From the NCBI GenBank assembly GCA_019638845.1, contig JAHBSZ010000002.1:310001-374000 (forward strand): a DNA stretch of 64,000 bases, given 5' to 3'. How positions within the stretch are numbered: position 1 is the first letter of the stretch; each line of letters opens with the position of its first letter. The position numbers and the translations under genes are program-made. The notes under the pieces were generated by a model. That model saw nothing but the letters and a program-made list of their open reading frames with translations. It was not told the DNA's origin and ran no database searches. Below, piece after piece: positions 1-10,773 of this stretch. This stretch comes from Salinibacterium sp. (lineage in GTDB: Bacteria; Actinomycetota; Actinomycetes; Actinomycetales; Microbacteriaceae).

Positions 1-952
1 CGGCGGGCGTCAGAAGGTCAGCCCCGGTAGCACGGAGCGCGTCGACGAGTTGCGTCGTGAGGCCGCGGACGTGCTCTTCGAGGGCGAGGGCATCCACCGA
101 CTGCAGAAGTCGAAGCGACTCGTTCATAAGGTAGACCCCGGGAAAGCTTGGGAATCCGAGCTCAAGCTGTCGGGCATCCGACCGCAGGTGGAATCGTTCG
201 AGTCGGTCTGGCGCGAATACGTTGTCAACCGAACGCCAGCCGACGGCGCTGACCGGTCCGTTGAATGCCTCGGGCCTAGTGAGATGCACGACGCCGATTC
301 CATGAGGCGCGAGCAACCACTTATAGCTACTCGAGACGATCGCGTCAGCCTCCTCCGCATGCACCGGCAGCACCCCGAGCGACTGAGTAGCGTCAAGGAT
401 GAAGGCGGCACCAACCCCGTTCGCGACCGCTCGCAGTGCCTGCGCGTCGATTCTGACGCCGCTGACGTAACTCGTGTGACTCGACAGGACCAGACGCGTC
501 TTCTCGTCAATCACTTTCTCAAAATCTGCGACCTCAAGATCTCCGTGCTTGCTGCGCGCGAATCTGACCTCAACGCCGCGATCCCGCAACGTCAGAAGTG
601 ATTGCACACCCGACGGGAATTCGAGGTCGCTGGTGACCACGTTTGAGCCCGGTTCGTATTCGATAGATCCCGCGAGTCGATGCAGTGCGTCGGAAGCATT
701 GCCCAGTAGCGCAACCGAGTCGGCCGAGCCGTTGAGAAGGCGCGCAATCTGCGCGCGGCACTCTGCGAGCTCGATTTCGCCGTGCTGTCGTCCGCGAGCT
801 CCATCAGACTTGTCGTCGAGATAGCGCAAGGCAGCGTCGCGATGTGCATGAAGCGCCGGCCCTTCCGCACCCGAGTAAAGATGCACGACGCCTTCGATCC
901 CGAGAATATTCTCACGGAAGAATGGCCCCGTCGTCGTCCTAGTGGCAGTCAT
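1..952 (-). CDS. Class V aminotransferase-fold PLP enzyme, partial (C-terminus off window)
   Basis: This is an open reading frame of 317 codons running off the left edge; I translated it by hand and found no stop. It resembles class V aminotransferases and cysteine desulfurases. Residues near 183-193 contain F-I-L-D-A-T-Q-S-L-G (D187 would contact the PLP nitrogen), and S-S-S-Y-K-W-L follows with K211 as the likely PLP lysine. An N-A-S-D-A-L segment near residue 85 fits the phosphate-binding region. The ATG overlaps the TGA of the amidohydrolase by 4 bp (949-952), so it is the last visible gene of the ABC-transporter operon. It probably acts on an amino intermediate of that catabolic route; desulfurase, lyase, epimerase or transaminase chemistry cannot be told apart here. 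Confidence 0.85.
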   Translation of the reverse strand, partial: MTATRTTTGPFFRENILGIEGVVHLYSGAEGPALHAHRDAALRYLDDKSDGARGRQHGEIELAECRAQIARLLNGSADSVALLGNASDALHRLAGSIEYEPGSNVVTSDLEFPSGVQSLLTLRDRGVEVRFARSKHGDLEVADFEKVIDEKTRLVLSSHTSYVSGVRIDAQALRAVANGVGAAFILDATQSLGVLPVHAEEADAIVSSSYKWLLAPHGIGVVHLTRPEAFNGPVSAVGWRSVDNVFAPDRLERFHLRSDARQLELGFPSFPGVYLMNESLRLLQSVDALALEEHVRGLTTQLVDALRATGADLLTPA

Positions 953-1758
953 TGAGCAGCTCCGTGGTAGTGGTCGAATAGCCGGGTGGCATTGTCATTC
1001 AGGATGCTTGCGCGCTCTCGCGCGGTCACTCCCCGGGGCAAGAGGCACTGGATTGCTTCTTCAAAGGAGATGTACTCAAGACAGGGCGAAAAATCTGAGC
1101 CCCATACCAATCGGTCAATGCCGAACGCATCGGCGATGACGTCGACGACAAGCTGCGCGTCGTCGTGCGGGTAGCCCCCCGCGCTCGCCGCGTACTGCCC
1201 CGAGATCTTCACCGACACGTGCTCGGCATCCGCGAGTCCCAACAGCGGCTCAAGCCGTGCTTGAGCCGCTGCCGTCGAACCAACCGGACCTGGCAACCCG
1301 AGGTGCGACACGAGGATCCAGGTTTCTGCCAGCCGGCGGATCGCCGGAGCAAGCAGAGACAGGGCCTCGGGGACGGCGTTGAGCGACACGATCGCGGGAG
1401 GTTTCCCTGATACCTGTGCGGCCTCGAGGATCGCGAGGGCATCGCGAGCTGCAGGCATATCGGTCGCATACAGGGAAATGAAGTCGCCTCGCCCGACGGC
1501 ATTGCCCGTGGCCACAAAGCGCAGCGGAACAATCCAGTCGTGATCGTGGGCTAGCCCTTCGATGTACTCGTTGTTGCCGACATACCGGTCGGGTTCCTCG
1601 TACCCAATGACAAGCGTGCGGGTGATTCCGAACTCTTCCCGGAATCGTTCATACGCAGCTAGCTCATCTCCACGGGCTCGCGACAGGAAGCCGAACCTGC
1701 CGTGATACCCGCGCTCGAACAGGTGACAGTGGGTATCAAAGAGTCCCTCCGGATTCAC
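949..1758 (-). CDS. Amidohydrolase 2 family (TIM-barrel metal hydrolase)
   Basis: The 269-residue protein opens with F-D-T-H-C-H, the first-strand metal-binding H-x-H of amidohydrolase-2 TIM barrels (H10, H12). Later S-H-L-G near residue 155 and G-S-D-F-S near residue 220 fit the His and terminal Asp of the same site. The family hydrolyses lactones or decarboxylates acids, for example 2-pyrone-4,6-dicarboxylate lactonase and ACMSD relatives. Its ATG overlaps the enolase-superfamily gene by 4 bp and its stop overlaps the PLP-enzyme start. A lactonase step after the enolase-superfamily enzyme is plausible but is inference from position. Confidence 0.85.
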   Translation of the reverse strand: MNPEGLFDTHCHLFERGYHGRFGFLSRARGDELAAYERFREEFGITRTLVIGYEEPDRYVGNNEYIEGLAHDHDWIVPLRFVATGNAVGRGDFISLYATDMPAARDALAILEAAQVSGKPPAIVSLNAVPEALSLLAPAIRRLAETWILVSHLGLPGPVGSTAAAQARLEPLLGLADAEHVSVKISGQYAASAGGYPHDDAQLVVDVIADAFGIDRLVWGSDFSPCLEYISFEEAIQCLLPRGVTARERASILNDNATRLFDHYHGAAQ

Positions 1759-3056
1759 GTGTCAAGCCCCGGATAGAACGTGAGCCCCGGCCACGCGACC
1801 CCGGTACCGGTGAACCGGCGACCGGCCTTCGCGCGCCGGGCGTCGAACTCAGCGCTGCCGTCGTCGGCGACAACGTCGAGGCGTGTGCCCCGCACCTGCA
1901 CGCCAATTGTGGCGTCGTCCAGGCAGTCTTTCCACAAGTCGTTGACGGATGCATACTCACGGGTCACCCCCGCGGGAGTGCTGAATACGAGAACCGTGCG
2001 TGGGAGAACCACTTCGTAGTCATCCGCGACGCGGTAGGTCTCCAACGCATTCTCGTCGACCGTTACGCCAAGGCCTGGGCCCTCAGGCACAGGAACGAAG
2101 CCGAGCGTGGGTTCAAGCGACTCGTTCACGAGTGTCGATTCAAAGACGTTCATTGCTGTTACTGAAGGCCAGCGAGCGTGGCTGAGTACCGAGCCGAGAT
2201 GCAGCGCGAGAGCGGTAGTAAGGCCGGTTCCGACAAGCTGCAACCAGAATTCCTTGTTGAAGGCGGCGCACGTCGCACCCGTCTGCAAGAAGCGGGAGAC
2301 GCCGCCAATATCAACCACAAACCCATCAAGGGATTCATTCTGCATCCAGGTCGGAAAGAGTGCAGGATCAAAGTGTTCTACGAGCGGAGTGCGCAACCGC
2401 GCACGGATCGCGCGCTGGTCGGCGACTTGTGCACGCCCCACAGGACCTTCCATGAAATGGACCCTTGGATGCTCGTCAAGTCGCTCGAGGACCTCCCGCG
2501 CGCCAGCAGCGGTGAGCAGCAACGAGTTCCAGTCGATTCCGAGACCATAGTCGTCGGGAGTAACCGCAGTGATCATCTCGACTTGTTCGTACACGTCAAA
2601 CCACGGTCGAGCCTTGAACTTGTGTGCACGATATCCCCGTCCGGCCGCTTCGGCGGCCTCCGCTGCGAGGTCTTCCGGCGACATTTTCGTGCTCCACCAC
2701 GCGACCGGGACGTGCGCCCGAACCGCGGGGAGCGCAAATAGTCGGTTGACAGGAGTCTCTAGAGCTTTGCCTGCAGCGTCGAACAGCGCCATCTGCAGAC
2801 CAGCGCCGAGACTGTCATCCCACAGGTGGTCGAAGAGGGGTTGTCCTACTACTCGAGCACACGCGGCATCGTCCACCTTCTTCCAGGTGTAGTTGAGAAG
2901 GGTCTCGCCCCACCCCACGATTCCGGCATCGGTGGTGACCTTGCACATCTCGATCAGGCCCCATCCGCCCACGAGAATCTCGTTCCACTTTCGAGTTCTC
3001 GGCGTGAACGGTACGTGGACACGGAAACGCTCCACGTTCGCGATGGTCAGTTTCAT
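1755..3056 (-). CDS. Enolase-superfamily (mandelate racemase/muconate lactonizing type) enzyme
   Basis: The 433-residue protein has the superfamily layout: an N-terminal capping domain (about 1-110) and a barrel. The barrel carries K-F-K (K146 and K148), the KxK catalytic motif, then metal-ligand candidates D175 in G-I-D-W-N and E203 in M-E-G-P, with E227 a possible third. Members abstract a proton alpha to a carboxylate and act as acid-sugar dehydratases, racemases or cycloisomerases. It sits between a creatininase and an amidohydrolase with 4 bp overlaps on both sides, so its substrate is probably the compound imported by the adjacent ABC system. An extension after about residue 340 (E-N-A-L-E-T-Y-R-V onward) makes it somewhat long for the family. 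The substrate cannot be read from the sequence. Confidence 0.85.
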   Translation of the reverse strand: MKLTIANVERFRVHVPFTPRTRKWNEILVGGWGLIEMCKVTTDAGIVGWGETLLNYTWKKVDDAACARVVGQPLFDHLWDDSLGAGLQMALFDAAGKALETPVNRLFALPAVRAHVPVAWWSTKMSPEDLAAEAAEAAGRGYRAHKFKARPWFDVYEQVEMITAVTPDDYGLGIDWNSLLLTAAGAREVLERLDEHPRVHFMEGPVGRAQVADQRAIRARLRTPLVEHFDPALFPTWMQNESLDGFVVDIGGVSRFLQTGATCAAFNKEFWLQLVGTGLTTALALHLGSVLSHARWPSVTAMNVFESTLVNESLEPTLGFVPVPEGPGLGVTVDENALETYRVADDYEVVLPRTVLVFSTPAGVTREYASVNDLWKDCLDDATIGVQVRGTRLDVVADDGSAEFDARRAKAGRRFTGTGVAWPGLTFYPGLDT

Positions 3057-3847
3057 GCGGGATTCCTTTGGGTTGTGGTCGCTGAGCGCTCGTCGAGAAG
3101 GCGGACGTGGCTCGCGATGAGTTCCGCGATCTCGCGGGAGAGCGCATCGAGCGCCGTTTCTCCAAACTCCTTTGTCGCCGCCGCCGGACCGTCGGTTCGA
3201 CCATCACTTAGCCGCCAGTCGGCGAATCGAGAATCCGAGACCCCCGGTACTTCGTTGGTGACCAATGGGAACGGGCCCTGTTCAGCCGGCGCCCGGTCGA
3301 GGTGCACAAGTGCGGGATGCAAGGCGAGCATGATGCTCGTCTCGAATGCACCCGCGTGTCCGGGCACTGGAAATTCCGGTTTCGGCTGAAGGGCTCGCTC
3401 GGCCGCGTTCCAGTACGAGAGGCCCGCTGCCGATTGCCGCTCCTCGGCGGTGAGCGCCAGCCGCTCGATCGCTACCCGCATCGATGCATCGTTGCCGCCA
3501 TGGCCGTTGATGAAGAACGTCCGAGTGAAGCCTTGCGAGCGCAATGCCGTCACCATGTCGATGAGCGACCGGATGAACGTGTCCGACGTCACGCTCAGGG
3601 TTCCACCGAACGGCAGATGATGCCCAGAAACCCCAACAACAACTGTGGGCGCGAGAGTGACGTGGATCGCCTCGCCAACAATGGCGCACGTGCGTTCGGC
3701 AAGAGCAGTAACGATAGCGGAATCGGTTTGCGTCGGAAGATGATCGCCGTGCTGCTCAGTAGCTGCGAGTGGGATCACGACAAGGCCACCGGTGCGCTCG
3801 CTCAGTTGAACCCGGGTGAGCTCTGCAAATCGTGCGAAACCCGTCAT
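3053..3847 (-). CDS. Creatininase-family amidohydrolase
   Basis: The 264-residue protein has the creatininase-family metal motif P-L-A-A-T-E-Q-H-G-D-H-L-P with E31, H33 and H36, then T-D-S with D42, and the later F-I-N-G-H-G-G-N-D. These match the binuclear metal site of creatinine amidohydrolase, MftE and formamidopyrimidine amidohydrolase (ArfB). Family members cleave amide or cyclic-amide bonds. It is translationally coupled (4 bp overlaps) to the permease upstream and the enolase-superfamily gene downstream. This suggests an amide, lactam or modified acid as the imported compound. True creatinine use is not supported, as no creatinase or sarcosine oxidase gene is nearby. Confidence 0.85.
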   Translation of the reverse strand: MTGFARFAELTRVQLSERTGGLVVIPLAATEQHGDHLPTQTDSAIVTALAERTCAIVGEAIHVTLAPTVVVGVSGHHLPFGGTLSVTSDTFIRSLIDMVTALRSQGFTRTFFINGHGGNDASMRVAIERLALTAEERQSAAGLSYWNAAERALQPKPEFPVPGHAGAFETSIMLALHPALVHLDRAPAEQGPFPLVTNEVPGVSDSRFADWRLSDGRTDGPAAATKEFGETALDALSREIAELIASHVRLLDERSATTTQRNPA

Positions 3848-4683
3848 CGGAAGGTACCTCCCATCGAAACACCGCGGCTAATCGTCTTGTTGAACACGAA
3901 ATAGATCGCCATGAGAGGCAAGGTCGCGAGGCTCAACCCCGCGAAGATTGGTCCGAGTTCGCTCCTGAACGCGCTCTGGAAGGTGAGCACACCCACCGGA
4001 ATCGTCTGGCTCGCCGCCTTCTGCATCAGCACAATTGCGATCTGCGTTTCGCCCCATACCCAGATGAGGTTCAGTAGTGAGACCGCGAGCAGCGAAGGTT
4101 GCGAGAGCGGGACGACGATCCGCGAAAAGGTCGCAAGATGCCCGAGGCCGTCGATCGCCGCGGCCTCGCGTAGTTCATGGGGGAAGTCCACGAAAAACGC
4201 GTGCAAGATGAGCATCGTCATCGGCAGAGAAAGGCCCGCGTACAGAACTCCCAAAGCAACGGGGTTGTTGATGAGCCCCCACGCATTGAATACCTGGAAG
4301 AACGGAATGAGAAGCGCCAGGGTCGGGATAATCGTCGCGATAAGCGGGATCATGAGCACTCGCGCCCGCCAACGCGCCGGCAGCAGGCTCACGAAGTAAG
4401 CGGCAACTGCTCCAACTACCGCGGAGACAACGACGGCGACGATCACCACAATGATCGAGTTGAAGAAATAGTTGGCGAACCCGGTACCCCCGGGCGGCCC
4501 GTTCCAGGCGCGTTCGAAGTTCTCTGGTACCCAATTTCCGGTTAGGCCGAGGGGATTACGGAAGATGTCCGTCATCGACCGGAACGACAACAACAGTATG
4601 AATATGAACGGGAACACTATTAACACAGTGATTCCGATCTTGAGCAGTCCCCATGCCGGGGCCGCAACGCGTGAACGGTTCAT
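3844..4683 (-). CDS. ABC sugar-type importer permease, MalG class
   Basis: The 279-residue membrane protein has about six hydrophobic segments and the cytoplasmic EAA loop (H-E-L-R-E-A-A-A-I-D-G near residue 175) that contacts the ATPase. This is the carbohydrate ABC importer type 1 MalG/UgpE architecture. It partners the MalF-class permease encoded immediately upstream (4 bp overlap) and the lipoprotein at 5622-6932. No ATPase gene is in the operon, so a shared MsiK-type ATPase encoded elsewhere probably energises it, as is common in Actinobacteria. The start is set by the overlap with the preceding stop. Confidence 0.9.
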   Translation of the reverse strand: MNRSRVAAPAWGLLKIGITVLIVFPFIFILLLSFRSMTDIFRNPLGLTGNWVPENFERAWNGPPGGTGFANYFFNSIIVVIVAVVVSAVVGAVAAYFVSLLPARWRARVLMIPLIATIIPTLALLIPFFQVFNAWGLINNPVALGVLYAGLSLPMTMLILHAFFVDFPHELREAAAIDGLGHLATFSRIVVPLSQPSLLAVSLLNLIWVWGETQIAIVLMQKAASQTIPVGVLTFQSAFRSELGPIFAGLSLATLPLMAIYFVFNKTISRGVSMGGTFR

Positions 4684-5582
4684 TCGCCGGCCGCCTTCGA
4701 TGCTGAGCCACGAAGCGTGATGGTTCCCAAAGCGATGAGCAGCACGCTGCTGAGCACTCCCATGGCCGCAGCAGAGCCGAAGTCACCGTTCTTGAAACCT
4801 TCTTGGTAGAGGAGCACAGGCAGAATTGTCGTCGACCCCGCCGGACCTCCCCGAGTCATGCCCCACACGATCGTGAAAGCGTTGAAGTTCCAAATGAGTT
4901 GGAGAGCGATGACCATAGTGAGAACCGGCCGGATGAGGGGAAGGGTGAAGTAGCGGAACTGGCTCCAGCCTCCAGCGCCGTCAATGCGTGCGGCCTCGTA
5001 GATCTCGGGTGGGACCCGATCGATCGCACCCGCCAGCAGCAGGAAGGGGAAGGCCGTGCTGGTCCAAATCGCGACACCCACAATGACCCAGAGGGCTGTA
5101 TCCGGCGAACCAAGCCATGCATGGTCGCTGCCGAGGCCCAGGAAACCAAGAATTGAGTTGATCACTCCCGACTGCGGCTGCACCGAGATCGACCAGAAGA
5201 CGGCGGCTGCCGTGCCTGGCACGATGGCGGGAAGAAACCATATCGTGCGGTAGATCGAGTCGAAACGACCACCGCCCGTCGCGGCCACTGCAAGCAGCAG
5301 CGCGGACGCCACAATGCCGACAGTAGCCGCGAGAGCGAAGACCACGGTGTTACGCAGTGCCTCAAAGAATGCCTTGTTATTCAGCACGTCGACGTAGTTG
5401 TCGAGCCCCGTCCATTCCATGGGGCCGAAACCCCGCCAGTCCGAAAACGAGAGCTGCAAGGTTTGCACTATGGGGAAGGCGAACACCGCTCCAAGCAGGA
5501 GCAGCGCCGGGAACGCGGCAAGGAGAACCACGCGGGTGGGAACCCGCAGTCCCGCGTTCCCGGACGCTGCACGAGAAGTCAT
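4680..5582 (-). CDS. ABC sugar-type importer permease, MalF class
   Basis: The 300-residue membrane protein begins with a short positive N-terminus and a first transmembrane helix (V-L-L-A-A-F-P-A-L-L). It carries the EAA-loop motif E-I-Y-E-A-A-R-I-D-G-A-G near residue 190, as in MalF/UgpA permeases. It lies 39 bp downstream of the binding-protein gene and overlaps the MalG-class gene by 4 bp, so the two should form the heterodimeric channel. The predicted substrate class is a carbohydrate or carbohydrate-like acid, by family only. Confidence 0.9.
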   Translation of the reverse strand: MTSRAASGNAGLRVPTRVVLLAAFPALLLLGAVFAFPIVQTLQLSFSDWRGFGPMEWTGLDNYVDVLNNKAFFEALRNTVVFALAATVGIVASALLLAVAATGGGRFDSIYRTIWFLPAIVPGTAAAVFWSISVQPQSGVINSILGFLGLGSDHAWLGSPDTALWVIVGVAIWTSTAFPFLLLAGAIDRVPPEIYEAARIDGAGGWSQFRYFTLPLIRPVLTMVIALQLIWNFNAFTIVWGMTRGGPAGSTTILPVLLYQEGFKNGDFGSAAAMGVLSSVLLIALGTITLRGSASKAAGE

Positions 5583-5621
5583 GATTACGCGCGACCGATC
5601 TTCTCGTTGCCCACGGAGTTC

Positions 5622-6932
5622 CTAGCCGCCATTCCGGATCTCCTCAAGCAGTGCATCCAGTTCGACCCCGATGTCATGAGAGGTCGTCTCGCCAAGCACG
5701 AGCTTCTGGATGAGCGGATCGGTCGTGCCCAGCTTGGCAGGAACCAGGGATGCCCAGCCTGCGGCGTTCCCGTATTTCGCATCGAACTCGATGAGCTCAC
5801 GAACCGACTCAGGAGCCTTCGCGAACTGGGTGGAGTCCGTGATCGAGATGCCGGGAAGAGCACCGCCGGTCGCTTCGATCGCCGCAACCTGCATCTCATC
5901 AGACATGAGCATGATGAGGAACTTCTTTGCGAGGTCCGGGTTCTTTGCGTTGACGGGGATCTCCAGCAGGTTGCCCGCATAGAAGTCGGGCTGGGTGACC
6001 GCTGCGCTGATCGGCGGCAGGAACAGGAAGCCCATGTCGACGTTCGAGTCCTTGCCCTTGACCCCAGCCGGTGACTGGTTGTGGCCCATCATCATGCCGG
6101 CTTGACCTGCAGCGAAGAGCGCGAGAGCCGCATCTTGGTCCATGCCGAGCACGCCATCCTGGAAGACTCCATCGTCGTACATCTCCTTGATTCGATCAAG
6201 TGACTTGGTGAAGGGTGCATCCGTGTACGAGGAAGTGACGGGAACCGACTTGTTGAAGCTCGTCGTGTAGTTCGTGAGCTCCTCAGGGGTTGTCGCCGTC
6301 GCAAGCAGGTTGTCGAGAATCCAGGTGAAATGATAGTTCGAGCTGCCGCCGATCGAGAGTGGCTGGTAGCCCGCCGCCCGGATCTTTGCAACGATGCTCT
6401 TCAGGTTGTCCATGGTGCCGATTTGGTGATCAGCGGGAACGTCGATACCTGCCTCGGCGAAGATGGCCTTGTTGTACCAGGCGATTCCATAGAGCACCTT
6501 GCTGAACAGCACGCCAATCTTCTTGCCCTCGGGGCTGATCGCGTTGGCGAGGGCATCCCCGTAGCGGGACTGCAGGTCGGCATCGGCCCACACGTCATCG
6601 ATTGGCAGGAACTGGTCGGCCGCGAGCATCTCGGTGAAGACCGTGCTGTTGAACGGCGCGCTCGCAATGTCGGGTGCATCGCTCGAGGTGAGCACCTGCA
6701 AGTTGGTGGTGCTCTGCTGATCAGGCGTGAGCACCTGGAATTCGACGGTTACACCGGGATTCTCGGCTTCGAACTTGTCAGCAACGAGTTGGAATCCGGG
6801 CAGCGCGTATGAGTCGGTTTGGACAGTGAGCGTTGTCGCGACATCGCCAGTACCGCCCGCGGAACACGAGGTAAGTACCAGCGCGAGAGGGAGCGCCAAG
6901 GCGATCCCGACGCGGAGTTTTGTGGCTTTCAT
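5622..6932 (-). CDS. ABC importer solute-binding lipoprotein (extracellular SBP family 1)
   Basis: The 436-residue protein has a lipoprotein signal: K/R-rich start, hydrophobic core and lipobox L-T-S-C with C23 as the lipidated cysteine, then S-A-G-G. The mature part looks like an ABC family 1 sugar-binding protein (F-E-A-E-N-P-G-V-T-V near residue 55, A-W-Y-N-K near residue 152). It captures the substrate outside the membrane and delivers it to the permeases encoded next. It is the first gene of the minus-strand catabolic operon, with a promoter-like element and inverted repeats upstream. GAGG lies 4 nt before the ATG, a rather close ribosome site. Confidence 0.92.
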   Translation of the reverse strand: MKATKLRVGIALALPLALVLTSCSAGGTGDVATTLTVQTDSYALPGFQLVADKFEAENPGVTVEFQVLTPDQQSTTNLQVLTSSDAPDIASAPFNSTVFTEMLAADQFLPIDDVWADADLQSRYGDALANAISPEGKKIGVLFSKVLYGIAWYNKAIFAEAGIDVPADHQIGTMDNLKSIVAKIRAAGYQPLSIGGSSNYHFTWILDNLLATATTPEELTNYTTSFNKSVPVTSSYTDAPFTKSLDRIKEMYDDGVFQDGVLGMDQDAALALFAAGQAGMMMGHNQSPAGVKGKDSNVDMGFLFLPPISAAVTQPDFYAGNLLEIPVNAKNPDLAKKFLIMLMSDEMQVAAIEATGGALPGISITDSTQFAKAPESVRELIEFDAKYGNAAGWASLVPAKLGTTDPLIQKLVLGETTSHDIGVELDALLEEIRNGG

Positions 6933-6967
6933 CGATCCTCATCTTTCATTTCAATGACGTAGAGCGG

Positions 6968-6992
6968 GTCTGGTGAAGACTTAGCTTCAGAC
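6968..6992. repeat. Imperfect inverted repeat in leader of catabolic operon
   Basis: GTCTG-gt-GAAG pairs with CTTCAGAC around the 6-nt loop ACTTAG, leaving a 2-nt bulge. It falls between the likely promoter (7038-7067) and the start codon of the binding-protein gene, so it would lie in the 5' untranslated leader. It could be an RNA hairpin or a regulator site. No U-tract follows, so a terminator is less likely. Confidence 0.4.
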
Positions 6993-7026
6993 CACTACGT
7001 GATGGTCAAAAGCCGTTTTGGTGCTG

Positions 7027-7042
7027 ATAGTGAACACACTAT
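7027..7042. promoter_or_regulatory. Perfect palindrome overlapping operon promoter (candidate operator)
   Basis: ATAGTG-AACA-CACTAT is a perfect 6+6 inverted repeat. It overlaps the -10-like hexamer of the minus-strand promoter at 7038-7067, the usual position for a repressor operator. The divergent CGNR protein or an unlinked LacI/GntR regulator could bind it; the regulator is not identified. Confidence 0.5.
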
Positions 7043-7067
7043 TGCGGACATATAGCCGGAACGTCAA
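7038..7067 (-). promoter_or_regulatory. Sigma70-like promoter of the catabolic operon
   Basis: Read on the minus strand, TTGACG (7067-7062) is followed after 18 nt by AATAGT (7043-7038), a near-consensus -35/-10 pair. Transcription would start near 7031 and give a leader of roughly 100 nt before the ATG at 6932. Confidence 0.5.
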
Positions 7068-7089
7068 GCGTTTTGTCCGAAATTCATCA

Positions 7090-7104
7090 CAATCAAAGTG
7101 ATTG
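7090..7104. promoter_or_regulatory. Palindrome CAATCA-AAG-TGATTG between divergent genes
   Basis: This is a perfect 6+6 inverted repeat with a 3-nt centre, upstream of the CGNR gene -10 (7125-7130). It lies at about -34 to -48 of that gene and could be an operator or activator site controlling it. Confidence 0.4.
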
Positions 7105-7124
7105 ACGGTAGTGACGCCACGCGC

Positions 7125-7137
7125 TACGGTACTCACT
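7125..7137 (+). promoter_or_regulatory. Leaderless -10 (TACGGT, 7 nt before ATG)
   Basis: TACGGT at 7125-7130 fits TANNNT and is followed by exactly 7 nt before the ATG at 7138, so the transcript probably begins at the start codon. No Shine-Dalgarno sequence is present, which agrees. Confidence 0.5.
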
Positions 7138-7704
7138 ATGAACGGCCACGACTGGCGTCACCTTGAGCACGTCTTAGGTACGCTCACCTCACTTGTCAAT
7201 TCAGCCCCGCCCGCTGCCGCCGCCGACGAACTCAACAATGTAGAAGCGCTCAAGAAGTTCGTCCTGGACCGCGTGATCACCGAGGTTGAGGAGCCCACCA
7301 CACGAGATGTCGAGCCAATGCACAAAGTGCGTGCCCAAATACGCGCTGTGTTCGTGGCACCCGACGAGCCTTCGCGCACAACACTCGTTAATCGCCTACT
7401 CGCGTCGGCCAGAATCGTCCCCCGGCTGTCAGATCATGATGGTTTCGGCCTTCATCTGCATTACTTTCCCTCGTTCGCCACTATCGAAGAGCACTTGATC
7501 GCGGACGGCGGAATGGCGCTGGCCGCAGTACTCACGGCCGGTGAGAGCGATCGGCTCAAAGTGTGCGGCGCCCCTGATTGTGCACGCGTAATGGTCGACT
7601 CCTCCCGCAACCGATCCCGAAACTTTTGCGACAGCGGGCGCTGCGGCAATCGCGTCAACGCTGCCGCCTATCGCGAACGTCAACGGGTATCACCGACATC
7701 GTGA
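7138..7704 (+). CDS. CGNR zinc-finger transcriptional regulator (ABATE domain)
   Basis: The 188-residue protein has an N-terminal helical ABATE-like region (L-V-N-S, then D-E-L-N-N-V-E-A-L) and a C-terminal CGNR zinc finger: C-G-A-P-D-C, then C-D-S-G-R-C-G-N-R-V-N-A-A-A-Y-R-E-R, with four cysteines. CGNR proteins are putative DNA-binding regulators found in sugar and stress loci of Actinobacteria. I chose the ATG at 7138 rather than an upstream TTG at 7102, because a -10 lies 7 nt before it and that excludes the TTG from the transcript. Its stop overlaps the SelA-like gene by 4 bp. It is the best local candidate regulator of the divergent operon. Confidence 0.85.
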   Translation: MNGHDWRHLEHVLGTLTSLVNSAPPAAAADELNNVEALKKFVLDRVITEVEEPTTRDVEPMHKVRAQIRAVFVAPDEPSRTTLVNRLLASARIVPRLSDHDGFGLHLHYFPSFATIEEHLIADGGMALAAVLTAGESDRLKVCGAPDCARVMVDSSRNRSRNFCDSGRCGNRVNAAAYRERQRVSPTS

Positions 7705-8855
7705 GGGACTACGTCGATCTCGGCATCCGGACCGTGGTCAACGCGGGGGGCGCACAATCTCGCCTCGGCGGCTCGACTCTTTCACCTGAGGTCAGGGAGG
7801 CGATGAGTCGGGCGTCGACCGAGTATGTCGACGTGGAAGCACTCCACGATCGCGTCGGGCAACGACTTGCCGTCGCAACCCGCAATGAGGCTGCCGCAGT
7901 ATCTGCTGGCAGTGCTGCTGGGATCATGATCGCCGTCGCCGCTGTCATTACCGGCACTGACCCTGACCGCGCCGCCGCCCTACCCCGTCAAGGTGATAGC
8001 CGTCCCACTGTCGCGGTCTGGCGCGCCCACACAACCGGTGTGCTCGCTGGCGCGGACTCGATCCACGACAACGGGTATCTCAACAGCATTGCTGCGGGGG
8101 GTGGATGGGTACGGGTAATCGATGCTCCAGCGGAACTGCGGTCGAGCGACGCCGCCCTGGTGTGGTTTCCCGGGATGTATGGCATCCCCGACGAGGACAC
8201 CAAGCTCATCGAGTTCGCGGCACAAGCGCGGGATGTCGGGGTGCCCGTGATCGTTGATGCCGCCGACCAAATTCCACCTTTCGCTCGAAGTTGGGAGTAC
8301 ACCACCGCATGGGGAGCGGATCTGGCTCTGTTCAGCGGGGGCAAGGGACTTCACGGCCCCACGAGTAGCGGCCTCATCCTGGGTCGCGCCGATCTTGTGG
8401 CTGCCTGTCGTGCGAATAGTGGCACCGAGCATGGGGTGGGTCGGCCAGCCAAGATCGGCCGGGAAGAACTCCTCGGACTTCTCGTCGCGGTAGAGCACGC
8501 GTCCAGAGTCGATGAGGACGCTCGCTTCGCCGAACAGGACGCGGTCGTGCAGCACTGGGCTGAGGCTTTCGCCTCGCTACCGATCGATCTTGAGCGTGTG
8601 CCGCTCGGGCATTGCGGTCAGCGGATACCCCGACTCATCCTTCGGCTCCGTTCAGGATCGCGCGAATGCCGCGACGACCTCATCGCCGAACTGTGGGATG
8701 CCGACCCGCGCGTAGCCGTACTGCCCGAAGTAGAGGCGGCAATTGCGCTCAGCCCGCAACTGCTCGTCGACGATCAGCCGTCATTGGTGGAGGCGCTCGT
8801 CCACCGCGTCATCAGCGCTCATCTTGAGGGTTGCCCGGTCTGCGCGCCGGACTAA
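7701..8855 (+). CDS. SelA-like PLP enzyme (D-glucosaminate-6-phosphate ammonia-lyase/DgaE type)
   Basis: The protein is about 384 residues and starts at a GTG that overlaps the CGNR stop (GTGA). The N-terminus R-T-V-V-N-A-G-G, the middle V-I-V-D-A-A-D-Q-I-P-P and the PLP-lysine segment F-S-G-G-K-G-L-H-G-P match the SelA-like aminotransferase fold. Bacteria without selenocysteine use such proteins as amino-sugar-acid lyases or racemases. No selB, selD or tRNA-Sec gene is here, so selenocysteine synthesis is unlikely. Its coupling to the regulator, opposite an importer operon that also encodes a PLP enzyme, suggests it removes an amino group from the imported compound or an intermediate. Confidence 0.82.
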   Translation: MRDYVDLGIRTVVNAGGAQSRLGGSTLSPEVREAMSRASTEYVDVEALHDRVGQRLAVATRNEAAAVSAGSAAGIMIAVAAVITGTDPDRAAALPRQGDSRPTVAVWRAHTTGVLAGADSIHDNGYLNSIAAGGGWVRVIDAPAELRSSDAALVWFPGMYGIPDEDTKLIEFAAQARDVGVPVIVDAADQIPPFARSWEYTTAWGADLALFSGGKGLHGPTSSGLILGRADLVAACRANSGTEHGVGRPAKIGREELLGLLVAVEHASRVDEDARFAEQDAVVQHWAEAFASLPIDLERVPLGHCGQRIPRLILRLRSGSRECRDDLIAELWDADPRVAVLPEVEAAIALSPQLLVDDQPSLVEALVHRVISAHLEGCPVCAPD

Positions 8856-8906
8856 CGCGACCGCCCCAAGAGCAGCCTCGGCCGCACATGCCATGGGGAT
8901 GGGCGA

Positions 8907-9899
8907 CTACCCGGAGACGAGTTGTTTCGCGCCGCCCTCGAACTCGCTGATATCCCCCGTCTCGCCGGCGCGCATGGCACGACGGCCGACGATGAATTGG
9001 TACGCAAGGAACGAGCCGAGAGCAACAGTGCCGATGCCGATTTTGATCGGCCACGGCCACGCCTGACGAGTCACGAATCCCTCGATGATCCCGGAAACCA
9101 GAAGCGCGAGCGCAAGCCCGATCACGATCGTGAAGAGCGCGCGACCTTCTTCGGCGAGGGCCCTGCCACGCGTACGGGCACCCGGGGCTATCCACGCCCA
9201 GAACAGGCGCAACCCCGTGGCCCCTGCGACGAAGATCGAGTACAACTCGAGCTGGCCGTGCGGGGCGATGTAAAGGAAGAACACGTCGAGGTCACCAAAG
9301 TGCGCAAGCGCCGCTGCCGCCATCCCGATGCTCTGCGCATTCGTGAACATGATGACGGGCGAGACCACCCCGAAGATGCCGAACAGGATGCACTGGGCCG
9401 CCACCCATGCGTTGTTGGTCCACACGACTCCCGTGAACGAGGTCTCCGAATAGGTCGAGTAGTAGTCGACGAACGCCTGACGATAGTCCTTGAGGTCGGC
9501 CTCAGAACCGAAGGTTGCCAACACTCGGGGGTCATTCATCGCCCACGCCGCATAGATCACGGCGACAAGAGCGCTCAACACGGCAATCACGAGGGTCAGA
9601 GTGCGTACTCGGTACAACGCCGCCGGAAGTTGGTTGACGAAGAACGTCGGGAGTTGGCTCATCACGTTTGCCGACGCTCCCGTGAATTGCAGCCGCGCAC
9701 GACTGAGCCACAGCGACAGCCGATCGGCCTGAGCAGACTGCCCCGCGGTGGTCTTGATCGCAGAAAGTTGAGTCGCCCCAGACTGGTAGCGGTCGATCAG
9801 TTGGTCGGCCTCGATACCGCTAAACCGACGGCGTGCGCCAAGCCGGGCAAGCTCATCCCATTCATCGCGGTGGGCGGCGGAGTAGGCGTCGAGATCCAT
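8907..9899 (-). CDS. Stage II sporulation protein M (SpoIIM)-family membrane protein
   Basis: The 330-residue integral membrane protein starts M-D-L-D-A-Y. A charged N-terminal domain (about 1-100) precedes roughly six transmembrane helices; the H-G-x-x-E-L segment typical of SpoIIM proteins appears as P-H-G-Q-L-E-L near residue 215. The family occurs in non-sporulating Actinobacteria next to RDD proteins, as here. Its start is only 16 bp from the divergent RDD start. The longer frame upstream would overlap that gene, so I chose the ATG at 9899. The molecular role is unknown. Confidence 0.85.
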   Translation of the reverse strand: MDLDAYSAAHRDEWDELARLGARRRFSGIEADQLIDRYQSGATQLSAIKTTAGQSAQADRLSLWLSRARLQFTGASANVMSQLPTFFVNQLPAALYRVRTLTLVIAVLSALVAVIYAAWAMNDPRVLATFGSEADLKDYRQAFVDYYSTYSETSFTGVVWTNNAWVAAQCILFGIFGVVSPVIMFTNAQSIGMAAAALAHFGDLDVFFLYIAPHGQLELYSIFVAGATGLRLFWAWIAPGARTRGRALAEEGRALFTIVIGLALALLVSGIIEGFVTRQAWPWPIKIGIGTVALGSFLAYQFIVGRRAMRAGETGDISEFEGGAKQLVSG

Positions 9900-9915
9900 C
9901 TGCTTAAATGATCGC

Positions 9916-10773
9916 ATGGCCCGCCCCGTCTCCGTTGACCCCGTCGAGCACATCGAGGACATGCACGAACTCGTGACAGGTGAAGCCGTGGCACTCGACC
10001 TTCGGCCCCAGAGCTTCATCCTTCGCGCTGCGGGGGCGATGATCGACTACCTCGTCTACTTCGGCGCGTACATCCTGATCATGGTGATGCTGTTCACCTT
10101 CGCGAGCCAACTCGGGCTCGACGATGCGCTGCTGCGCACCATCGGGGTCATCGGCCTCGTCTTGTGCATCGTGGTGATTCCGGTGACCGTGGAACTTCTG
10201 AGCCAAGGCAAGTCCCTCGGCAAGCTTGCGGTCGGTGCCCGAATAGTGCGCGACGATGGCGGTGCCATCGGGTTTCGGCACGCGTTCATCCGTGCACTTC
10301 TTGGCGTGTTTGAGATCTATATCTCGCTCGGCGGCGTTGCCGCGATCACGGGCCTCCTCAACGGCAAGGCCAAACGCATGGGCGACCTGCTTGCGGGAAC
10401 ATACAGTCAGAACGAGCGGGTATCGAAGATCGAACTACCCGTCTTCGGTGTCCCCGTACCGCTCATCGAGTGGAGCCGAACCGCCGATGTGGCACGGATG
10501 CCCGACGCGCTAGCCCGCCGCACCGCGCAGTTCCTGCGTCAGGCGCCGGGACTCACCCCAGTCTCACGCGAGCGACTGAGCCGGGAGCTCGCCCACGAGG
10601 TCTCCGTGTATGTGTCCCCCGTGCCGATCGTCGGCGCGGAACTGTTCCTCGCGGCAGTCGCCGCCGTCCGACGCGACCGCGAGTTCGCCGCGCTCGAGCT
10701 GGAGAAGGCGGGTCTTGCGCGCCTCGCACCCGCTCTGGAAGGCACGCCGCGGGGCTTTCCCGACCGCGGCTAG
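9916..10773 (+). CDS. RDD family membrane protein
   Basis: The 285-residue protein has an RDD domain at about residues 28-160: L-R-P-Q-S-F-I-L-R-A-A-G-A-M-I-D-Y, two long hydrophobic helices, then S-L-G-K-L-A-V-G-A-R-I-V-R-D-D-G. A third region contains the K-R-M-G-D-L-L-A-G-T ending common to RDD proteins. A soluble C-terminal domain of about 110 residues follows. It is divergent from the SpoIIM-like gene, a pairing often seen in Actinobacteria. TTAAAT lies 6 nt before the ATG and may be its -10. Function is unknown; transport or membrane organisation has been proposed for the family. Confidence 0.85.
   Translation: MARPVSVDPVEHIEDMHELVTGEAVALDLRPQSFILRAAGAMIDYLVYFGAYILIMVMLFTFASQLGLDDALLRTIGVIGLVLCIVVIPVTVELLSQGKSLGKLAVGARIVRDDGGAIGFRHAFIRALLGVFEIYISLGGVAAITGLLNGKAKRMGDLLAGTYSQNERVSKIELPVFGVPVPLIEWSRTADVARMPDALARRTAQFLRQAPGLTPVSRERLSRELAHEVSVYVSPVPIVGAELFLAAVAAVRRDREFAALELEKAGLARLAPALEGTPRGFPDRG

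Follow-up and report, generated by a model that had tools for sequence, protein, structure and literature searches.

A run of 12 minus-strand genes crosses the left edge of a 64,000 nt stretch of the Salinibacterium sp. genome (the window; G000:C6:310001–374000, own genome 2.96 Mb) and is a real, conserved and horizontally acquired catabolic operon. Its products probably import an amino sugar, oxidize it and remove its nitrogen without prior addition of phosphate. An N-acyl amino sugar or its acid is the most likely class of substrate, an assignment held with middling confidence.

Operon layout and the inserted block

Seven minus-strand reading frames fill positions 1–6932 of the window, and six of them are joined by five 4 bp overlaps (4680/4683, 3844/3847, 3053/3056, 1755/1758 and 949/952), as an earlier, sequence-only reading of this DNA had described. 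Pfam matches also agree with the families named there (Aminotran_5, Amidohydro_2, MR_MLE_C, Creatininase, two BPD_transp_1, SBP_bac_1 and zf-CGNR/ABATE). That reading had bounded the operon by positions 1–8855. However, the operon extends past the window edge, because the stretch of the same contig to the left carries five further genes, M20, GFO, AHY1, DUF4432 and RidA. Base 1 of the window falls inside AT5, with the last ~60 codons of that gene to the left.

The minus-strand order is SBP-permease-permease-CREA-ENO-AHY2-AT5-M20-GFO-AHY1-DUF4432-RidA. The first gene (5622–6932; SBP_bac_1, 6.5e-28) encodes a CUT1-type sugar solute-binding lipoprotein (SBP) with a lipobox-like LTSC read by eye, and lies 39 bp upstream of the six overlapping genes. 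Two CUT1 permeases with BPD_transp_1 domains follow, PERM1 (4680–5582, UgpA-like) and PERM2 (3844–4683, GlcU/UgpE-like), both likenesses below cut-off. Next come CREA, a creatininase-family metal hydrolase (3053–3847; PF02633, 6.5e-56, 189.8 bits), ENO, a divergent member of the enolase superfamily that carries an additional C-terminal segment (1755–3056; MR_MLE_C, 4.2e-27), and AHY2, a fuconolactonase-like member of the amidohydrolase-2 family (949–1758; PF04909, 1.6e-15). AT5, a class V pyridoxal 5′-phosphate (PLP) enzyme, has its N-terminal part at 1–952 (whole gene C6:309816–310952; Aminotran_5, 3e-31 for the whole protein). Left of the window the same strand encodes the M20 hydrolase (C6:308650–309816), the Gfo/Idh/MocA protein GFO (C6:307754–308653), AHY1, an ATZ/TRZ-type amidohydrolase 1 (C6:306322–307770), DUF4432 (C6:305315–306325) and RidA, the last gene of the operon (C6:304914 to ~305318; PF01042, 5.1e-24). 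These genes overlap their neighbours by 1 to 17 bp, and the run ends at C6:304914.

With two divergent plus-strand genes the block comprises 14 genes. One encodes a CGNR zinc-finger/ABATE regulator (CGNR, 7138–7704; zf-CGNR 3.5e-17, ABATE 3.3e-11), the other a DgaE/SelA-like PLP ammonia-lyase homologue (DGAE, 7701–8855; NF047797 6.9e-39 and TIGR01437 9.3e-38, both below cut-off). Both genes of this pair are real, as first reported, but their starts are better placed elsewhere. For CGNR the ATG at 7138 is better placed by sequence comparison than the TTG at 7102, because the homologue in another genome (G531) aligns from its own ATG and the TTG lies inside an upstream DNA element common with G531. 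For DGAE the GTG at 7701, which gives a 4 bp overlap with CGNR, is more likely than the TTG at 7578. The earlier label of a SelA-like lyase agrees with NCBIfam, which gives a SelA/DgaE-like PLP protein; the Pfam match is below cut-off.

The block is a horizontally acquired insert of ~14 kb, because none of eight same-genus genomes showed it at the corresponding site and it lies between 14 bp direct repeats. Its right-hand neighbour, SpoIIM-like by eye (window 8907–10019), has a match in 12 of the 13 same-genus genomes searched, own included, and 8 of the 11 other genomes with such a match were taken for site comparison. In all eight, the SpoIIM/RDD genes are followed by major facilitator superfamily, aquaporin-like or DUF58/MoxR genes (names by eye), and no operon protein (RidA was not among the queries) gave a match at the site at E 1e-8. 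The nearest relative, G1394, is 76–79 % identical over long pieces of DNA; the alignment breaks at C6:304832 and resumes at C6:318907, leaving ~14.07 kb extra against ~0.57 kb of other sequence in G1394. The G+C content is 0.619 in the block, and 0.65 and 0.639 in the flanks.

The direct repeat, ACTACCCGGAGACG on the plus strand, brackets the insert at C6:304853–304866 (L002:6853–6866) and C6:318906–318919 (window 8906–8919), and the SpoIIM-like gene has its 3′ end within the right copy. It is the longest match between the two 400 bp edges, compared with a maximum of 12 in 200 shuffles that keep single-base make-up only; it was noticed first and counted afterwards. L002 and the window hold one copy each, and the edges have no match beyond the repeat. 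No near copy (≤2 mismatches) was present at the junction in the eight relatives, and the repeat may therefore have arrived together with the insert. There is no recombinase among the 14 block genes.

Conserved core in other genomes

AT5, M20 and GFO occur together in other genomes, mostly with AHY2. Searches with AT5, confined to the host's class, covered 297 order-level genomes (yielding G531 and G362) and 246 class-level genomes (G1251, G1162 and G1252), and the AT5 of locus L036 was used as query against 151 genomes of the order of G1252 (G1365 and G1326); the genome sets overlap. Besides the host's own, seven genomes in four families (f3, f14, f107 and f113) carry the core, and they therefore represent fewer than seven independent cases. 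Presence was scored by tblastn at E 1e-5, and compared with 20 control stretches, each 20 kb long and placed at author-chosen round coordinates in four of the core genomes. M20 and GFO each lie within ~10 kb of AT5 at all seven loci. AHY2 is found at five, CREA at three and DUF4432 at two, with an additional Pfam match to DUF4432 in L041. CGNR, DGAE and ENO occur at one core locus each, and the three CUT1 transporter genes at one (L023). In the controls M20 and GFO each appeared once and the two permeases four times each; the rest, including AT5, AHY2 and CREA, did not appear.

In G531 (L022) the order is the same, CGNR / AHY2-AT5-M20-GFO-DUF4432-RidA, with the regulator divergent and 63 % identical. 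Beyond RidA lie a CUT2-type binding protein and a protein with GH20b, an accessory domain of beta-N-acetylhexosaminidases. L034 has CREA-AT5-M20-GFO-DUF4432. In L035 AHY2 and AT5 are fused into one protein of 677 aa, followed by M20, with CREA, GFO and a DGAE homologue (44.5 %) no more than 9 kb from AT5. In L040 a span of 12.2 kb holds AHY2-AT5-GFO-M20 together with CREA and two ENO proteins. In L023 RidA comes after AT5, and L-rhamnose mutarotase and SIS domains are also encoded at the locus.

The co-occurrence of these gene families bears out the idea of a coherent catabolic operon. The sequence-only reading had looked for conserved co-occurrence of at least five genes, and this holds at four of the seven AT5 loci (six families each in L022, L035 and L040, five in L034), though only when the count takes in genes beyond the window edge. 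Among the nine genes which that reading had listed, L023 has five, three of which encode transporters of a common type, L035 and L040 have four each, L022 three, L034 and L036 two and L041 one. It had also proposed a comparison of ENO neighbourhoods across Microbacteriaceae. The gene set shows no conservation within the family of the host, where ENO was found in the host's own genome alone among 299. ENO is accessory, being present at only one of the seven core loci; the core consists of AT5, M20, GFO and AHY2, and two of these, M20 and GFO, fall outside the window.

Several features of these loci stand apart. The GFO match of L022 is split over two frames (7932–8842), by frameshift or assembly error. 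In L040 (8253–15800) RraA-like, Amidohydro_2, acetamidase/formamidase and U32-like genes (Pfam) and a creatininase (tblastn) stand beside the two ENO proteins; by eye, further enolase-superfamily and amidohydrolase genes are present and a second pathway is possible there. In two genomes that belong to the same family, the gene immediately upstream of M20 is one of ~280 aa without a Pfam family (L040:5952–6815 and L036:6755–7582); a DUF1684 gene takes this position in L041.

A plasmid collection was probed with six proteins. No copy of the core was present among the seven AT5 neighbourhoods viewed, out of 240 records with an AT5 match (none were viewed for the other five queries). ENO gave matches to 21 records, all distant and for the most part Deinococcus menC or haloarchaeal genes. 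An AT5 relative in Haloferax is directly preceded by an M20 gene. A Mesorhizobium plasmid (L024:3532–16110) has a 37.6 % AT5 relative with peptidase, amidase, sarcosine oxidase, threonine dehydratase and PurU genes, a different use of this PLP family.

Candidate enzymes and regulatory sites

In AT5, Lys211, Asp187 and the motif Arg355-x-Ser-x-His are invariant in seven of seven sequences. The lysine is presumably the PLP lysine. The six best NCBIfam models score at most 87.5 bits against cut-offs of 352–531. L-cysteine/L-cystine C-S lyases and cysteine desulfurases are among the nearest AT5 relatives of known structure. A cysteine desulfurase (SufS/IscS) role was rejected because the seven sequences have no conserved cysteine; the catalytic cysteine of desulfurases is taken to lie in a C-terminal loop.

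The best models for M20 are acetylornithine deacetylase and DapE-ArgE, and H86, D88, D115, E148/E149, E172 and H358, which we take to be its di-metal ligands, are invariant in five of five sequences. GFO has UDP-GlcNAc (GlcNAc, N-acetylglucosamine) 3-dehydrogenase as its best named model, and also matches inositol 2-dehydrogenase (1.3e-19). AHY2 is nearest to lactonases. It matches 4-sulfomuconolactone hydrolase (4e-8) and L-fucono-1,5-lactonase (2.3e-7), both below cut-off (30.7 bits against 400 for L-fuconolactonase), and its best profile match is 4dlf, which we take to be an L-fuconolactonase. DGAE is closest to D-glucosaminate-6-phosphate ammonia-lyase, with 133.8 and 130.1 bits against curated cut-offs of 600 and 385.3, and matches Protein Data Bank (PDB) entries 8t7j (9.2e-38) and 7lc0 (1.2e-30).

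CREA falls below the curated cut-offs for creatininase (94.1/235 bits), MftE (118.9/172) and IolN (66.1/245), matching IolN at 2.7e-18. Its motifs EQHG, D, NGHGGN and HAG-FE, the residues of which are presumed metal ligands, are kept in four of four sequences.

Judged by sequence, ENO belongs to a rare, divergent group of the enolase superfamily. It has 13 homologues at 35–50 % identity, and at E 1e-40 it was found, own genome included, in 1/299 family, 2/396 order and 1/396 phylum genomes. Both MR_MLE_N/C domains are present, and K146 and K148 of a KxK motif on barrel strand 2 are invariant in 14/14 sequences. The confident model (mean predicted local distance difference test score 85.8) places D175 on strand 3, E203 on strand 4 and Q273 on strand 7. 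Assigned by strand order in this metal-free model and by alignment, the ligands depart from the rule of three acidic residues on strands 3, 4 and 5: D175 and E203 are invariant, and strand 5 ends in H228, invariant in 14/14. The closest solved relatives by sequence are N-acylamino acid racemases, and the top Foldseek match in the PDB is 2oqh (6e-23), an isomerase entry from Streptomyces coelicolor. ENO proved too rare to serve as a search anchor, its 13 distant relatives lying in unlike neighbourhoods; AT5 was the productive anchor. An ENO relative found at order level (L018) has no AT5 or M20 match at its locus, which holds another enolase-superfamily gene, M81, Amidohydro_2 and oxidoreductases. 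A creatininase is near ENO at five of the 13 distant loci (three near-identical Chloroflexota-type contigs and two near-identical Gemmatimonadota/Latescibacterota ones), again in L040 and in the window, which suggests an ENO-CREA pair that is at times joined to the core.

The divergent promoter region contains the palindrome CAAAA-N4-TTTTG (7007–7020), a single match in the window where 0.00 were expected. It recurs in the matching intergenic region of G531 (L022:12050–12063; L020 is the same place) and, among 61 loci, elsewhere only once, inside the M20 gene of L040 (5290–5303), which is taken as chance. The palindrome was noticed first and counted afterwards. The element common to G531 upstream of CGNR, GATTGACGGTAGTGA (also given as GATTGACGGTARTGA; 7100–7114, plus strand), includes a TTGACG −35-like box. 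Both are post hoc candidates for regulatory sites, the palindrome as an operator.

Predicted pathway, alternatives and known systems

Gene content, conservation, fusion, insertion and intact motifs are observed, whereas every reaction and the substrate are inferred. The preferred reading, with about as much confidence for it as against, is that an N-acylated 2-amino-2-deoxy sugar (of the GlcNAc, N-acetylgalactosamine or N-acetylmannosamine type) or its aldonic acid is broken down oxidatively by a non-phosphorylative route. The CUT1 transporter would take up the substrate, DUF4432, taken as a mutarotase, would supply the right anomer, GFO would oxidize C1 to give a lactone, and AHY2, perhaps with CREA, would open it. 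Deacylation by M20 would then yield a 2-amino sugar acid, a beta-hydroxy-alpha-amino acid. AT5 and/or DGAE would eliminate water and ammonia by PLP chemistry and RidA would clear the enamine/imine, to leave a 2-keto-3-deoxy sugar acid for cleavage by an aldolase of the dihydrodipicolinate synthase (DHDPS) family encoded elsewhere. ENO may act at the acid stage as a dehydratase or epimerase, and the CGNR protein would control the divergent promoters. RidA partners of PLP lyases clear enamines. Since 2-amino sugar acids are beta-hydroxylated alpha-amino acids, an ArgE-like deacylase and then a PLP ammonia-lyase, after C1 oxidation and lactone opening, would form one consistent route.

Counted in favour of this amino-sugar route are the enrichment of M20, GFO, AHY2 and CREA near AT5 relative to controls, the AHY2-AT5 fusion, the G531 locus with its closely related regulator, RidA and GH20b, the RidA of L023 and the four DHDPS-family genes of the own genome. 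The apparent nearness of M20 to ArgE, of DGAE to D-glucosaminate-6-phosphate ammonia-lyase, of GFO to UDP-GlcNAc 3-dehydrogenase and of AHY2 to lactonases also points this way. The earlier suggestion of an amino-sugar acid is thus partly upheld, as the best-supported substrate class within a predicted scheme, whereas nothing specific supports a lactam or an amidated uronic acid.

An ending by KDPG aldolase (KDPG, 2-keto-3-deoxy-6-phosphogluconate) was dropped. That family, PF01081, was not found in the host's own genome, with 8/14 controls positive, so the usual route through 6-phosphorylated 2-keto-3-deoxygluconate (KDG-6-P) is unavailable by that family. The genome holds four DHDPS-family genes, one presumably dapA; non-phosphorylated aldol cleavage is therefore the more likely ending.

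Several observations count against the amino-sugar route. The missing PF01081 is one, and a KDG kinase was likewise not seen among the operon genes. All named NCBIfam models score below their curated cut-offs, and the roles of CREA, ENO and AHY1 are loosely explained; AHY1 has no match in any of the seven core loci and is unexplained. AHY2 has no match in L034 and L041 (tblastn, E 1e-5). RidA is not general, standing at the operon in L022 (61 %) and L023 (45 %) and at none of the other five loci, with ~29 % matches in 2/20 controls. The M20 of L023 is 28 % identical and on the opposite strand. Outside its GH20b domain, the 708 aa protein of L022 has no Pfam match over cut-off and no recognizable catalytic domain, and a sequence search of the PDB gave no match. 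Large neighbouring genes in L034 and L035 are without a Pfam family, and in L041 (11136–14633) the core is directly followed by phosphoenolpyruvate mutase/isocitrate-lyase-like, citrate synthase and MmgE/PrpD genes, which resemble a methylcitrate cycle and are not foreseen by the proposed route.

The solved relatives of AT5 also allow a different chemistry, in which a mercapturate or mycothiol conjugate is degraded: M20 would deacetylate an N-acetyl-L-cysteine S-conjugate, AT5 would act as a C-S beta-lyase, RidA would clear 2-aminoacrylate and GFO and CREA would process the inositol or sugar part. The C-S lyases and desulfurases near AT5, the ArgE-like M20, the weak likeness of GFO to inositol dehydrogenase and of CREA to IolN, and the placement of all seven AT5 genomes in the host's class, to which the searches were confined, are in keeping with this. 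Sugar transporters, DUF4432, the GH20b-domain protein and a lactonase-like AHY2 fused to AT5 would all be superfluous, however, and the DgaE homologue would be unexplained, so this substrate seems unlikely.

The distribution of ENO raises the prospect of two pathways in one transcription unit, an AHY2-AT5-M20-GFO-DUF4432-RidA module for amino sugars or amino acids and an ENO-CREA module that acts on a different acid, with a single transporter serving both. At 5/13 distant loci ENO is near CREA with no AT5, M20 or AHY2 match, and 6/7 core loci are without ENO. Yet the window and L040 combine both modules in different arrangements, which suggests a common substrate or intermediate; separate pathways are accordingly doubtful.

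IolN is thought to hydrolyse a ring C-C bond, and an aminocyclitol or inositol-derived substrate would have its ring oxidized by GFO, the ring bond hydrolysed by CREA and its amino group removed by the PLP enzymes. This is very unlikely: the IolN and inositol 2-dehydrogenase matches that would support it are far under curated cut-offs, CREA was not found at four of the seven core loci, and the lactonase-like AHY2 and DgaE fit poorly. General salvage of N-acyl-amino acids or D-amino acids with no sugar pathway would agree with the Mesorhizobium relative beside peptidase, amidase, ectoine-type ABC transporter and sarcosine oxidase genes, with the Haloferax relative directly after an M20 gene and no sugar genes nearby, and with D-amino-acid-type neighbours in L036, but is highly improbable given the sugar-type ABC transporters in the window, L022 and L023, the presumed mutarotase DUF4432 adjoining the core in the host, L022, L034 and L041, and the L-rhamnose mutarotase gene in L023.

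The combination had been called one not recognized as a described pathway, and a search of open-licence papers indeed found no description of this gene set among the matches listed. The nearest precedent counted for the amino-sugar route is the marine ong cluster of Pseudoalteromonas prydzensis, in which, according to the cited accounts, a GH20 enzyme, a deacetylase, a PLP deaminase, RidA and KDG kinase convert GlcNAc1A, the aldonic acid of GlcNAc, to KDG and KDG-6-P (PMC9537276, PMC12017989); RidA (OngD) is described there as required for growth on GlcNAc1A (PMC9537276). The likeness lies in a predicted deacylation followed by PLP-dependent removal of the amino group from an unphosphorylated 2-amino sugar acid, with a RidA, a partner of the OngD kind being present in the operon (PF01042, 5.1e-24), and in the GH20b-domain gene of the G531 version. 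As far as the ong accounts go, the operon differs in having M20 as deacylase candidate in place of the D-aminoacylase-like OngB, Aminotran_5 (AT5) and DgaE-like PLP enzymes in place of the fold-type-III OngC, ABC uptake in place of a sodium-solute symporter and CGNR in place of MurR/RpiR, and in lacking KdgK. It has extra C1 dehydrogenase and lactonase candidates and could therefore start from the sugar. Within the operon, the only region searched for these, there is no OngB-type deacetylase (its amidohydrolases are the ATZ/TRZ-type AHY1 and the Amidohydro_2 AHY2) and no fold-type-III deaminase of the OngC type. The operon is thus not an ong member, but by analogy it may work like one. In L036 (16668–19999), 5–8 kb from the AT5 core, are a D-ser_dehydrat PLP gene, RidA and a D-aminoacylase-like Amidohydro_3 gene, the kinds of OngC, OngD and OngB, respectively; this trio is counted as a possible further pointer to the amino-sugar route.

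With the Dga pathway the operon shares a DGAE homologue (6.9e-39), but it has no phosphotransferase system or kinase genes, which belong to that pathway, and the score of 133.8 bits compares with a cut-off of 600. Non-phosphorylative routes of the L-fucose/L-rhamnose type use a dehydrogenase, a lactonase and an enolase-superfamily dehydratase. The operon also has GFO, a fuconolactonase-like AHY2 and an enolase-superfamily protein, whereas removal of nitrogen is indicated by its M20, its two PLP enzymes and its RidA, and its ENO is without the usual acidic ligand on strand 5. A putative GlcNAc route in Natrarchaeobius, itself a prediction, likewise includes a C1 oxidation step, and its chitin cluster encodes a DgaE homologue (PMC12343721). 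By its description, that route deacetylates before oxidation, by CE14, and the passages describing it name no AT5, M20, GFO or AHY2 genes. A more specific version of the preferred reading is a second, independently assembled oxidative amino-sugar route, with a C1 dehydrogenase, lactonase, M20 deacylase and Aminotran_5-type PLP ammonia-lyase from non-ong families, in which the His-ligand ENO would invert C2 of the N-acyl amino-sugar acid for an L-specific M20; in this full form it is distinctly unlikely.

If the amino-sugar route is true, the insert would illustrate how a whole pathway can arrive in a chromosome as a single block. The route would give functions to families so far uncharacterised (AT5, AHY2, DUF4432, the ENO group and the CGNR regulators), with direct predictions (the SBP ligand, the M20 product and ammonia release by AT5) within reach of a small laboratory. 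The host's class, probably actinobacteria, would likewise gain a complete amino-sugar pathway, as would a family in it whose genomes measure ~1.5–1.7 Mb.

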